Shown here piece by piece: positions 33,843 to 38,762 of a DNA stretch of 64,000 bases. The position numbers and the translations under genes were made by a program. The number at the start of each line of letters is the position of its first letter. The stretch's first letter is position 1. Where the stretch lies: assembly GCF_003051055.1 (NCBI RefSeq), contig NZ_QAON01000011.1:1-64000 (forward strand), written 5' to 3'. The notes under the pieces were generated by a model. It was not told where the DNA came from. It did not search any database and saw nothing but the letters and a program-made list of their open reading frames with translations. This stretch comes from Agitococcus lubricus. GTDB lineage: Bacteria > Pseudomonadota > Gammaproteobacteria > Pseudomonadales > Moraxellaceae.

Positions 33843-33862
33843 TACCGATTCAATGTCGTCAT

Positions 33863-33895
33863 AAAAAAGAGGCTTTTTAGCCTCTTTTTTATTTT
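33863..33895 (+). terminator. Intrinsic terminator after the SCP2 gene
   Basis: AAAAAAGAGGC pairs with GCCTCTTTTTT around a T-rich loop (33863-33891), followed by more T. Confidence 0.9.
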
Positions 33896-34034: not shown

Positions 34035-34406
34035 ATGAAATTATCAACCTTAACACCGATTGCGACCGTGTTAGCCGCCTCTTTGACACAACCTGTGCAT
34101 GCAGAGACGAATCCGTTTGTCAGTACTGCCGCGCCAACGATGGTTTTGGCCGCGCACCATGAAGAGGGTAAATGTGGCGAGGGCAAATGCGGTACAGGCA
34201 TGAAAGAAGCCATCGAAAAAACCAACAAAGACGCAAAAAATGGCACTGTAAAAGCTGACCAAGAAGGTAAGTGCGGTGAAGGTAAATGTGGTGCTAAACG
34301 TCAAGCCCATGAAGGCAAGTGCGGTGGTAGTAAAGTAGAAACACCTAAAGTCAAAACCCAACACGAAGGCAAGTGTGGCGAAGGTAAATGTGGTGCACAA
34401 AAATAA
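34035..34406 (+). CDS. hvfA: HvfA-type EGKCG-repeat RiPP precursor
   Basis: A 123-aa exported low-complexity protein. The signal peptide is MKLSTLTPIATVLAASLTQP-VHA, probably cut before ETNP. The mature part has seven EGKCG motifs and no other cysteine: Cys47/52, Cys80/85, Cys96 (alone) and Cys114/119. In recently characterised MNIO (DUF692) systems, cysteines of EGKCG motifs in HvfA or bufferin precursors are turned into thiooxazole-type groups that bind copper in the periplasm. The hvfB and hvfC genes follow directly, which supports this role. GGAGTGAG precedes the ATG. The modification is inferred from the family, not visible here. Confidence 0.88.
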   Translation: MKLSTLTPIATVLAASLTQPVHAETNPFVSTAAPTMVLAAHHEEGKCGEGKCGTGMKEAIEKTNKDAKNGTVKADQEGKCGEGKCGAKRQAHEGKCGGSKVETPKVKTQHEGKCGEGKCGAQK

Positions 34407-34413
34407 TTTGACG

Positions 34414-35247
34414 ATGTCAATGCGTCACTTAGCCTCAATGAGCGCAGGTTTAGGCCTGCGTCGTAGTTTTTTGGCAGACTTATGCCAAACTGAAGACGAA
34501 AACGCACCTGACTTCATCGAAGTCGCCCCAGAAAATTGGCTGGGTATGGGCGGGCGTTATGCTAAACAATTACGTGCTTGTAGCGAGCGTTTTCCGTTAG
34601 TCTGTCATGGTTTGTCGTTGTCTATTGGGGGTTATAGACCATTAGATGAACCATTTGTGTTGCGCCTGAAAGCGTTTTTTCAGCAGCACCAAGTACGTTG
34701 CTACTCAGAGCATTTGAGTTACACGGGTGATGATGGTCATTTATATGATTTATTGCCTATACCTTTTACCGAGGCAGCCGCAAGACATGTCGCAGAACGT
34801 GTCATGCGTGTGCAAGATATCTTGGGACAACGAATCGCCTTAGAAAACGTGTCTTATTATGCAGCACCGTGTCAGGATATGACTGAGCTGGAGTTTTTGC
34901 TTGATGTGGTTCGGCAAGCAGATTGCCAAATTTTATTAGACGTCAATAATGTCTATGTCAATAGCATCAATCATCATTATGACCCTAAACTGTTTATTCG
35001 GGCTATTCCGCCCGAAAAAGTTGCTTATCTCCATATTGCAGGACACTATGTTGAGGCTGAGGATTTACGTATTGACACGCACGGTGCGGACGTGGATTCG
35101 GAAGTCTGGCAACTATTAGCAACGACTTATCAACATATTGGTCTACGACCGACCTTATTAGAACGTGACTTTCATATTCCGCCCTTAGCAGATTTATACC
35201 AAGAGTTGGCACAAATTAGGCAACAGCAACGAGATGCTGCATCATGA
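34414..35247 (+). CDS. hvfB: HvfB-type MNIO (DUF692) peptide-modifying oxidase
   Basis: About 277 aa with a TIM-barrel DUF692 fold. Conserved metal-site segments are PENWLGMGG, HGLSLSIGG, SEHLSYTGDDGHLYDLLP, ENVSYYA, LDVNNVYVNSINH, HIAGHY and LERDF. These enzymes use two or three iron ions to modify precursor cysteines. The start is probably ATG 34414 (MSMRHL), 7 bp after hvfA; an in-frame start at 34375 would lie inside hvfA. The stop overlaps hvfC by 4 nt. It has no signal peptide, so modification should occur in the cytoplasm before export of HvfA. Confidence 0.93.
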   Translation: MSMRHLASMSAGLGLRRSFLADLCQTEDENAPDFIEVAPENWLGMGGRYAKQLRACSERFPLVCHGLSLSIGGYRPLDEPFVLRLKAFFQQHQVRCYSEHLSYTGDDGHLYDLLPIPFTEAAARHVAERVMRVQDILGQRIALENVSYYAAPCQDMTELEFLLDVVRQADCQILLDVNNVYVNSINHHYDPKLFIRAIPPEKVAYLHIAGHYVEAEDLRIDTHGADVDSEVWQLLATTYQHIGLRPTLLERDFHIPPLADLYQELAQIRQQQRDAAS

Positions 35248-35987
35248 GTGATTTTGTCGCTTTACAAAAACAATGGACCACATGGTTGCGGCAGCCTAAC
35301 ACAGCACCTGCACCCGATATCGACCCCAGACGACTCGCAATTTATCGTGAGTTGTTTTTTAATAATGTCCTCAGTTTTTTAGAAAGCACTTTTCTGCTTT
35401 GTCAGCAGTGTGTTACCGCAGATGATTGGCAGATACTAACCCGTCGATTTTTTGCTGAACATTCTTGCCAGAGCCCTTTTTTTTATGATATTTCGCAGGC
35501 TTTTTGTCAGTTTTTACAAAGTCAAACAGCCGTTCAAGAACAATATCCTTGGTTATTAGAACTTGCTCATTTTGAATGGGTTGAATTGGCGGCAGATATG
35601 GCAGAGGCAGAGCTGCCTTGTGCCATACAAGGCGATATAATACAGCAGATTCCTGTGCTTAATCCGTGTGTTTGGCCTTTAGTGTATCAATGGCCTGTGC
35701 ATATATTTGCGGAGCAATTGCCACCACATGAGCCGCCTCAGTTAGCGAGTTGCTTATTGTTTTATCGCACCTTAACTGACCATGTGCAGTTTATGGAAAT
35801 CACGCCTGTAACCGCTCGTCTCGTGGAATGCTTACAGCACAACCAAACATTGACGGGACAACAAATGTTGACTCAATTAGCGCATGAATTACAGTTAGAC
35901 ATGACACAGATACAAACGATGGGGCAGGCTATATTGCAAGACTTTGTTCATAGGCAAATTATTTTGGGTGTGAAGCCGAGCGAATAA
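35244..35987 (+). CDS. hvfC: HvfC-type DUF2063 partner protein
   Basis: A 247-aa protein with the N-terminal DUF2063 region (RRLAIYRELFFNNVLSFLESTF, residues 29-50; RRFFAEHSCQSPFFYDIS) followed by a second, less conserved domain. HvfC/BufC proteins pair with the DUF692 enzyme and recruit the precursor, the second domain resembling a RiPP recognition element. It overlaps hvfB as ATGAG, giving coupled translation. No signal peptide or membrane helix is seen. Confidence 0.9.
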   Translation: MSDFVALQKQWTTWLRQPNTAPAPDIDPRRLAIYRELFFNNVLSFLESTFLLCQQCVTADDWQILTRRFFAEHSCQSPFFYDISQAFCQFLQSQTAVQEQYPWLLELAHFEWVELAADMAEAELPCAIQGDIIQQIPVLNPCVWPLVYQWPVHIFAEQLPPHEPPQLASCLLFYRTLTDHVQFMEITPVTARLVECLQHNQTLTGQQMLTQLAHELQLDMTQIQTMGQAILQDFVHRQIILGVKPSE

Positions 35988-36135: not shown

Positions 36136-36867
36136 ATGTTGCCACGTTTGATTCCTGCCATTTTAACATCTCTTATGGTTTTACCAGCCAGTGCTTGGTC
36201 GACTGAAAATCCAGACCCTTGGGAAAAAACCAACCGTAAGATTTATGCCTTCAACAAAACGGCAGATACCTATTTTCTCAAACCGATTGCCAAAGGCTAT
36301 CGTGCCGTGACACCTCAAGTCGTAGACGATAGTATTAGCCGTTTTTTTGATAACTTATTAGAGCCTTTAACGGCGATTAACAATGTTTTGCAAGCTAAAC
36401 CACAAGTTGCTGCTAACGATATGGGGCGATTTGTTGTCAACTCAGTGACGAGTTTAGGTTTTGCTGACATCGCGCAAACAATAGGTTTACCCAAACATGA
36501 AGAAGATTTTGGTCAAACCTTTGGTAAATGGGGCGCACGCTCAGGTCCTTATCTAATGCTGCCATTTTTAGGCCCTAGTTCGGTACGTGATGCCCTTGCT
36601 AAGCCCTTTGACGGCTTAGTCAACCCTAGAAATTTGATTGAAGAACCCAGTGTCAACATCGGCTTATTTGTGTTGGATGTCGTGGATACGCGCGCAGATA
36701 TTATTCCACTAGAAAAAATTATTGAAGGTGATGAATACATCTTATTACGCGATGTGTATTTACAACGTCGAGAGTTTGCGGTGCAAGACGGTAAAGTCAA
36801 AGACAGCTTTATGGACGATATGGACGATGACTCGTCGGAAGAATCGTCGACATCGGCTAATCCCTGA
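36136..36867 (+). CDS. mlaA: MlaA (VacJ) family phospholipid-transport protein
   Basis: A 243-aa protein with the VacJ pattern: DPWEKTNRKIYAFNKTADTYFLKPIAKGYRAVTP, then NNLLEP-like FDNLLEPLTAINNVLQAKP and GPYLMLPFLGPSSVRDA. MlaA in the outer membrane removes phospholipids from the outer leaflet and passes them to MlaC. It has a signal peptide (MLPRLIPAILTSLMVLPASA) but no lipobox cysteine, unlike E. coli MlaA, so it may be a plain periplasmic or membrane-ring protein. The acidic tail (DDMDDDSSEES) is unusual. AGAGCAAGG is the ribosome site. Other mla genes are not in this window. Confidence 0.9.
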   Translation: MLPRLIPAILTSLMVLPASAWSTENPDPWEKTNRKIYAFNKTADTYFLKPIAKGYRAVTPQVVDDSISRFFDNLLEPLTAINNVLQAKPQVAANDMGRFVVNSVTSLGFADIAQTIGLPKHEEDFGQTFGKWGARSGPYLMLPFLGPSSVRDALAKPFDGLVNPRNLIEEPSVNIGLFVLDVVDTRADIIPLEKIIEGDEYILLRDVYLQRREFAVQDGKVKDSFMDDMDDDSSEESSTSANP

Positions 36868-37015
36868 TTGAATAGGTATCGGAATGTTTATATCTTACAC
36901 AGACGTCCGCATGATTAACCGATGGTCTTGATGACTATAACGTGGGTCAGCGACAGCGGTATCCGCAGAACTTAGAAGGAATTAATATGCAATCCTATTC
37001 ACGGTTCAGTCAGCC

Positions 37016-38212
37016 ATGATAAATCTAGCCAATGAACGTGGTTATATCTTAATAATTCATTCTGATATTGTCGTCAGAGATACCCTTGTCAATAAGCTAC
37101 TGGAATTTGGTCATACAGTCGTTGCCGTGTGTGAGTTAGAAGAGGGGCTTGCATTATTTCAACAAGATAATCATCAATTGGTGATGGTTGAATTAGCCTT
37201 GGCAAAACCCGTCTTAGCCTTAGTCAGCACAAACTACCCTGAAACCCCCGTCATTACAGTATCCAGTGATGTATCCATGGATATGGTAGTGGAAAGTTTG
37301 AAAAATGGTGCTGTCGACCATTTCTTTGATTTTCGGGACGTCATCGTATTGGCACATACGGTGCAACGAGCTTTAGAGCGTGGCCGTTTATTAAGACAAA
37401 ACAGAGATTATCAACAGCAATTAGAAGCGGCCAATGCCGAGCTAGAGCGTAGCTTAGAAACGCTACAAGCTGACCAAGAAGCAGGTCGGCGTATTCAATT
37501 TAGATTATTACCACAAACGCCTTACCATGTAGATTCACGCTGTCAAGTGACTCACCGAATTTTACCATCACTCTATTTATCGGGTGATTTTATTGATTAT
37601 TTCAAGATAGGTGAGGGTAAACTCGGATTTTATTTGGCAGATGTATCTGGACACGGCGCGGCCAGTGCCTTTGTCACGGTTTTTTTGAAAGCCATTACTA
37701 ACCGAATCCAAAAACACTATGAACGAAAAACAACGGTGAATTACGTTGCACCTGCTAAAATATTAGCCATGATTAACGATGAGTTAATTGCGACTCGCAT
37801 GGGTAAACATTTAGCCATGTTTTGTGGTGTGATTGATTTCGAGCATAATAAATTGACTTATAGCGTCGCGGCGCATTATCCCCCACCTTTATTAGTGAAT
37901 AATGGGATAACCACCGCGTTAGCAGGACGAGGCCTGCCTTTAGGCTTGTTCAAAGAAGTCAGCCATGACGAGTATGTTGTCGAATTAACCGAAGAGTTCG
38001 TGTTAATTGCGACATCTGATGGGGTATTAGAAGTATTACCCAAAGGGACGGCGAATGAAAAGGAAAAACAATTATCTGCCATGGCGAGCCATATCCAGAC
38101 GGTAGATGATATGATTACGGCATTAAATTTAAGTGATGAAGTAGAACTTCCCGATGACGTTGCTTTATTAGTAATCAATCGGAGCAAACAGACCGTAGAC
38201 GAAACGCTATGA
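37016..38212 (+). CDS. Degenerate receiver plus PP2C-type (RsbU/SpoIIE) phosphatase
   Basis: A 398-aa protein in two parts. Residues 10-125 form a receiver-like fold, but the acidic pair is reduced (HSD) and the phospho-acceptor is Glu59 (LVMVELALAKP) in place of Asp. A coiled coil at about 130-160 (EAANAELERSLETLQ) leads to a PP2C/SpoIIE phosphatase domain with metal ligands in SGDFIDYF, LADVSGHGAASAFV, ATSDGVLEV and PDDVALLV. The next gene encodes a STAS antagonist, so the phosphatase probably dephosphorylates it, as in the RssB-RssC and HsbR-HsbA type circuits of pseudomonads. The E59 suggests phosphorylation-independent or constitutive behaviour. Confidence 0.88.
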   Translation: MINLANERGYILIIHSDIVVRDTLVNKLLEFGHTVVAVCELEEGLALFQQDNHQLVMVELALAKPVLALVSTNYPETPVITVSSDVSMDMVVESLKNGAVDHFFDFRDVIVLAHTVQRALERGRLLRQNRDYQQQLEAANAELERSLETLQADQEAGRRIQFRLLPQTPYHVDSRCQVTHRILPSLYLSGDFIDYFKIGEGKLGFYLADVSGHGAASAFVTVFLKAITNRIQKHYERKTTVNYVAPAKILAMINDELIATRMGKHLAMFCGVIDFEHNKLTYSVAAHYPPPLLVNNGITTALAGRGLPLGLFKEVSHDEYVVELTEEFVLIATSDGVLEVLPKGTANEKEKQLSAMASHIQTVDDMITALNLSDEVELPDDVALLVINRSKQTVDETL

Positions 38213-38255
38213 CCTGCTATTCTGCTCAGTCTCGTTGTTGAGGATTTGTCCGCAT

Positions 38256-38762
38256 ATGCCTTCAGGCCACATTTTGTTTGCTGTGCACAATGGCACCTAT
38301 GTTTTAAAGTTTACGGGCGAAATCCGTGCACCTATGTGTGCAACATTGGATAATTTTTTAGATAAAATGTTCAATGATAATCAGATTGCCGCTATTCTGA
38401 TTGATTTAACCGAAACCGAATACATCGACAGTACTGCATTGGGATTGATTGCCAAGACCTCTGTGTTTTTGCAAATGCACAATCATCGCAAACCTATCAT
38501 TTTATCGACCAATCCAGATATTAGCCGTATTTTAGAAAGTATGGGTTTTGATCAGGTCTTTATTATTTTAGATTGTGAGTGCCATGAAGAGTGCCTAAAC
38601 GAACTGCCAGAAATAGAACCTTCAGAACATGAAATGATGGAAAAAGTGATTGCTGCTCACCGTGTGTTAATGGGACTGAGTGAGCAAAATCAAGCGACAT
38701 TTAAGAGCCTGGTTGAGGCTCTTGAATTAGAACAACAAGCACAAGGTGAGGATAAGATTTAG
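38256..38762 (+). CDS. STAS-domain anti-anti-sigma factor
   Basis: About 168 aa. The STAS core is AAILIDLTETEYIDSTALGLIAKTS (about residues 46-70), with the expected phosphoacceptor serine in IDSTALG, and LSTNPDISRILESMGFDQVF. The C-terminal extension (after about residue 110) is longer than in minimal antagonists and acidic. In such modules the unphosphorylated STAS protein sequesters an anti-sigma factor. It follows the phosphatase gene by 43 bp and is very probably its substrate. The kinase/anti-sigma partner is not in this window. The ATG at 38256 is used; an in-frame TTG at 38235 is less likely. Confidence 0.88.
   Translation: MPSGHILFAVHNGTYVLKFTGEIRAPMCATLDNFLDKMFNDNQIAAILIDLTETEYIDSTALGLIAKTSVFLQMHNHRKPIILSTNPDISRILESMGFDQVFIILDCECHEECLNELPEIEPSEHEMMEKVIAAHRVLMGLSEQNQATFKSLVEALELEQQAQGEDKI

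Follow-up and report, generated by a model that had tools for sequence, protein, structure and literature searches.

The chemistry of HvfABC-type systems was established between 2024 and 2026. Captophorins have been reported to bind copper (PMC13097082), and the modification carried by the products HvfA, FonA and NgoA is assigned in the published work as 5-thiooxazole, in revision of an earlier oxazolone/thioamide assignment (PMC13097082, PMC13419390). HvfC has been described as a PME1 protein with an RRE, and about 4 Da is lost per EGKCG cysteine (PMC13097082, PMC13419390, PMC12452194), while HvfB requires HvfC to attain its active Fe(II)/Fe(III) state (PMC13419390). Induction by an excess of copper, by gold or by oxidative stress is common among such clusters (PMC13097082, PMC13419390, PMC12452194).

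The hvfABC locus was found in a 64,000-nucleotide stretch of the Agitococcus lubricus genome (contig NZ_QAON01000011.1, positions 1 to 64,000), hereafter the window. Its closest published counterpart in layout is the fontiphorin cluster fonABC of Fontimonas thermophila, which is likewise a minimal precursor-MNIO-PME1 cluster without DoxX and whose precursor, as the one here, carries seven cysteines in EGKCG-type motifs, all of them 5-thiooxazoles in that system (PMC13097082). The residues of the enzyme pocket are the same in both; the two clusters differ in species and in motif spacing, and the product has been characterised in F. thermophila whereas the window locus is known from its genes. 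The oxazolin operon hvfABC(X) of Haemophilus influenzae shares with the window the arrangement of EGKCG in tandem pairs, and the window HvfB and HvfC score above the cut-offs of the corresponding NCBIfam models; however, HvfA of H. influenzae has six cysteines in three AEGKCGEGKCG units, against seven motifs arranged as three pairs and a single one here, and its operon includes the DoxX-like HvfX, which the window cluster lacks (PMC13419390). The bufferin 1 and 2 clusters (BufA of the DUF2282 type or Buf2, BufB and BufC) also combine an MNIO with a DUF2063 partner, and likewise involve a Sec-exported precursor, thiooxazoles and copper (PMC12452194), but the window precursor is neither of the DUF2282 nor of the Cys-Lys type, and the bufferin-side enzymes are only about 35% identical to the window HvfB and fall outside its clade.

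A DoxX-like fourth gene was not found in the cluster, and the only PF07681 match of the genome lies on contig C20. A DoxX-like gene is a frequent but not obligatory companion of HvfABC systems and no strict defining feature of them. In our comparison a DoxX gene was located nearby in 45 of 71 related loci, and the absence of DoxX from the window cluster is not unusual, since in the remaining 26 loci no DoxX gene lies within the flanks that were retrieved, and the fontiphorin cluster is devoid of it as well.

Table 1. Features of the hvfABC locus and of the region preceding it (window positions).
Feature	Position	Strand	Basis
Terminator-like hairpin and T run, between upstream SCP2-type gene and operon	33861..33892	+	14-pair stem
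hvfA, exported RiPP precursor, 123 aa, signal peptide and 7 EGKCG	34035..34406	+	motif count, NCBIfam
hvfA core region, EGKCG motifs starting 34164, 34179, 34263, 34278, 34311, 34365, 34380	34164..34394	+	motif and DNA-pattern scan
hvfB, multinuclear non-haem iron oxidative enzyme (MNIO, former DUF692), 277 aa	34414..35247	+	PF05114, NF003818, tree, residues
hvfC, DUF2063 and NGO1945_C (RRE-type) partner, 247 aa	35244..35987	+	Pfam, NF050145, PDB 3DEE match

The initial annotation, made from the letters of the window, described an exported protein with seven EGKCG motifs followed after 7 bp by a DUF692/MNIO enzyme and, with a 4-nt overlap, by a DUF2063 partner, and each of these elements was recovered in our analysis (Table 1). 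HvfA begins with MKLSTLTPIATVLAASLTQPVHA|ETN, a Sec-type signal peptide as judged by eye, and contains EGKCG at residues 44, 49, 77, 82, 93, 111 and 116; all seven of its cysteines fall in these motifs and no further cysteine is present. In 20,000 shuffles of the HvfA sequence the motif occurred 0.002 times on average and once at most. No further EGKCG was found outside hvfA in any of the six frames of the window, and the corresponding DNA pattern had no match outside hvfA in the 3.74-Mb genome. The codons that spell EGKCG vary synonymously from motif to motif, and therefore the array does not represent a very recent DNA repeat expansion. HvfA scored 55.4 bits against the NCBIfam model KCGExKCG_twice (NF050137), above its cut-off of 19.5, and 59.8 bits against the HvfA model NF050188, under the equivalog cut-off of 95, a shortfall that is perhaps due to the differing layout of the repeats.

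The ATG of hvfB lies 7 bp past the hvfA stop; the frame is open to an alternative GTG start from 34375, and the relatives fit a start near 34414. The overlap between hvfB and hvfC is ATGA. HvfB matched the Pfam family MbnB_TglH_ChrH (PF05114) with 342.8 bits and the NCBIfam HvfB model NF003818 with 419.6 bits, above the curated cut-off of 360, and its closest solved structure is 3BWW, a relative of HvfB found in Histophilus somni with which it shares 46% identity in 263 aligned columns. HvfC matched DUF2063 (73 bits) and NGO1945_C (84.9 bits) in Pfam as well as the NCBIfam HvfC model NF050145 (263.8 bits, above the curated cut-off of 142), and its closest solved structure is PDB 3DEE. An HvfC gene stands next to HvfB in all 79 relatives with enough downstream sequence.

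The relationship of HvfB to the HvfB and BufB sets, which had been proposed as a check, was examined in a tree of 102 enzymes built by a quick method with SH-aLRT support. The MNIOs were drawn from 58 related genomes, 80 loci of named genomes and DUF2282 (bufferin) loci of the class, and were labelled by the precursor encoded alongside; the label "other" came from an automatic rule, and some of the rows that bear it do have EGKCG precursors, such as that of Amnimonas (L032), with six motifs. The window HvfB was placed in a clade of 74 rows (SH-aLRT 100) in which 57 of the 58 EGKCG-linked enzymes are found together with 15 enzymes without a recognised adjacent precursor and PDB 3BWW; the DUF2282- and Buf2-linked enzymes were all found outside it. 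The outcome named beforehand as refuting the initial annotation, a position of HvfB outside the EGKCG-linked clades, was thus not obtained. Its nearest rows are the enzyme of a congener (about 68% identity) and other EGKCG-linked enzymes of the family of the host, and the enzymes of Acinetobacter baylyi and Amnimonas aquatica share its subclade, which points to Moraxellaceae as the most likely family of the host. The sole EGKCG-labelled enzyme outside the clade belongs to locus L127, where one BufB-side enzyme is preceded by precursors of both kinds, EGKCG and DUF2282.

As shown by the alignment, HvfB retains H65, E99, H100, E144, D176, N178/N179, H207, H211, D221, H223, E250 and D252. When counterparts to the published HvfB and FonB positions were assigned by alignment and motif, D221, H223 and N178 or N179 (of the DVNN motif) corresponded to D242, H244 and N175 of the published HvfB, iron-site residues whose replacement abolishes activity (PMC13419390), and D252 corresponded to D249 of FonB, which has been identified as the catalytic base (PMC13097082). 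R16, R17 and F253 are the counterparts of FonB R15, R16 and F250, which shape the pocket that receives the EGKCG motif; 71 of 72 enzymes of the HvfB clade have the second arginine of this pocket and 71 of 72 the phenylalanine, and the bufferin side mostly has other residues.

Gene order, family membership, clade and the catalytic and specificity residues of the operon are thus established here, and the chemistry, the role of the partner protein and the copper binding would be carried over from the published relatives. On these grounds the locus is very probably a minimal HvfABC operon of the EGKCG captophorin type, dedicated to thiooxazole maturation, export and Cu(I) buffering. In the proposed course of events, HvfC would hold the precursor HvfA via its RRE-type domain and activate HvfB; with O2 and its mixed-valent diiron centre, HvfB would then turn the cysteine of each EGKCG motif into a 5-thiooxazole, with a predicted mass change of about -4 Da per 5-thiooxazole and up to -28 Da for HvfA. 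The modified HvfA would then reach the periplasm via Sec, where the thiols of the thiooxazoles may bind Cu(I) and so buffer excess copper. Since the fontiphorin cluster has the same layout and yields seven 5-thiooxazoles, copper sequestration can be expected as the function here, and it may protect the host against copper. Three points weigh against this overall reading: the HvfA score under the NF050188 cut-off, the lack of a DoxX gene in the cluster, and the failure to recognise copper-responsive control of the operon. The earlier proposal of a copper-binding RiPP locus of the HvfABC type is consequently supported by curated models, phylogeny, diagnostic residues and architecture, and its wording of "thiooxazole-type" groups is probably right by inheritance from HvfA, FonA and NgoA. 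The locus is real but ordinary: it belongs to a kind of bacterial system that is very common and already named by curated models, and adds one clean minimal seven-motif cluster to a class of >20,000 known examples.

Other readings of the enzyme and of its product were also weighed. HvfB is matched by the profiles of both BufB (275, below the cut-off of 310) and MbnB (TIGR04159; 45.4, below the cut-off of 325), and HvfA was originally reported to carry an oxazolone/thioamide, which would be compatible with a bufferin or methanobactin maturase making a product of other chemistry. However, the tree and the pocket residues group HvfB with the EGKCG enzymes, and the oxazolone/thioamide assignment has since been revised to 5-thiooxazole (PMC13097082, PMC13419390), which renders such a reading highly improbable. 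The TIGR04159 score speaks against methanobactin identity, and the BufB score, the tree and DUF2282, for which no match was obtained anywhere in the host genome, speak against bufferin (Buf1/Buf2) identity. It is also unlikely that copper is secondary and that the modified peptide serves chiefly in oxidative stress or for another metal: such clusters have been linked to gold and oxidative stress in the literature (PMC13097082) and the precursor of a congener contains EF-hands, but copper is what the characterised relatives bind, and the operon contains no gold or redox gene.

The initial annotation further linked the operon to the investment of the host in cbb3 copper assembly. Profile matches confirmed the nearby genes on which this was based, those for CcoI, CcoG and a DsbD_2-type (SafE-like) protein, along with CcoH, and the starts of the SCP2 gene and of hvfA both lie no more than about 1.2 kb from ccoN. 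The order cbb3 - SCP2 - hvfABC - mlaA is kept in the congener G001 up to the limits of its short contig (ccoN being seen), and a genome of another genus (G014) has it completely, with the SafE-like gene at one end and the STAS gene at the other. A use of the same modified peptide for copper acquisition or storage for the adjacent oxidase, and not for buffering of excess, is nevertheless decidedly unlikely. Of the 61 loci whose upstream sequence was long enough, G014 alone has cbb3 upstream of hvf; in 37 genomes of the family, hvf and FixO/CcoO occurred independently (counts of 8/3/21/5, Fisher p 0.67, and 11/3/18/5, p 1.0), with CcoO missing from three hvf-bearing genomes; and in relatives, induction has been described under excess copper (PMC13097082). 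With adjacency in two other relatives only and no co-occurrence beyond chance, the suggested link finds no support beyond close relatives, and the proximity of hvf and cbb3 is more readily explained by inheritance of the gene order than by a functional unit.

Linkage of hvf to mlaA is broader than that to cbb3, as mlaA was found downstream of hvf in 11 of 79 loci, representing Moraxellaceae, Spongiibacteraceae-type genomes and an Aeromonadales genome. Genes for a response-regulator phosphatase and a STAS protein were found in 9 of the 79 loci, mostly after mlaA. The order hvfABC - mlaA - response-regulator phosphatase - STAS (window positions 36136-38762 downstream of the operon) recurs in distant gammaproteobacteria.

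In the region upstream of hvfA, a scan for sigma-70-like promoters yielded no site and no excess over shuffles. Alignment with the corresponding region of the congener matched the ribosome-binding site and scattered bases, with no clear operator, and neither a promoter nor a regulator responsive to copper was recognised for the operon.

A published survey separated precursors with plain repeats from those with EF-hands as two different types, the EF-hands of the latter being located C-terminally to a short EGKCG domain (PMC12452194). The syntenic hvfA of the congener G001 (contig C33, L020:986-1405) encodes two EGKCG motifs, an EF-hand pair (Pfam EF-hand_5, 7e-11) and two more EGKCG motifs, an observation made on one short contig of 3,990 bases. 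Its product thus resembles the second published type, Buf_EGKCG|EF-hand, in joining an EF-hand pair to EGKCG motifs, but the pair lies between the motifs and not C-terminal to all of them, whereas the window HvfA has no EF-hand. As a modest side finding, the plain and EF-hand types of precursor appear, as judged from sequence, to occupy orthologous, syntenic loci within one genus. It is possible, though doubtful, that the EGKCG precursor gains or loses an EF-hand pair at one syntenic locus with an orthologous MNIO, so that plain and EF-hand captophorins would be interchangeable modules in which calcium might tune copper binding or localisation in some species. The hvfA pair of the window and the congener could reveal the role of the calcium module, and this is the only part of the locus that could teach something new. 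A possible EF-hand relic in the window HvfA (TNKDAKNGTVKADQ, resembling TNKDGKISKAEF of the congener) was rejected, having no Pfam EF-hand match even at an E-value of 10. A DNA pattern combining EGKCG with an EF-hand loop gave no matches and also missed the known positive in G001. In the congener the gap between hvfA and hvfB spans about 75 bp and contains a hairpin, versus 7 bp in the window. The same nested layout of EGKCG and EF-hands was observed at a Pseudomonas locus (L069).

Several further MNIO loci were recorded. Woeseiaceae-type loci (L053, L056, L059, L061, L062, L071, L074, L077 and similar ones) encode HvfB-clade enzymes with HvfC and mostly DoxX, and lack an EGKCG precursor gene immediately upstream, where an endonuclease III-like gene is often found; the sampled enzymes form one subclade (support 100). 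The host genome encodes a second, divergent MNIO (L002:1369-2253 / L180:6090-6974; contig C1:417221-417805), which reaches none of the NCBIfam MNIO cut-offs. The next gene encodes a 301-aa protein that matches no Pfam family, and the cluster also includes genes for SWIM zinc finger, DUF5691, AAA and DUF5682 proteins. MNIOs with comparably low scores are present in G001, G002, G014 and G028. In the congener G002, hvf was not found, and its locus L003 is of the bufferin-1 type (DUF2282) and includes a DoxX-like gene; hence the type of captophorin varies within the genus.
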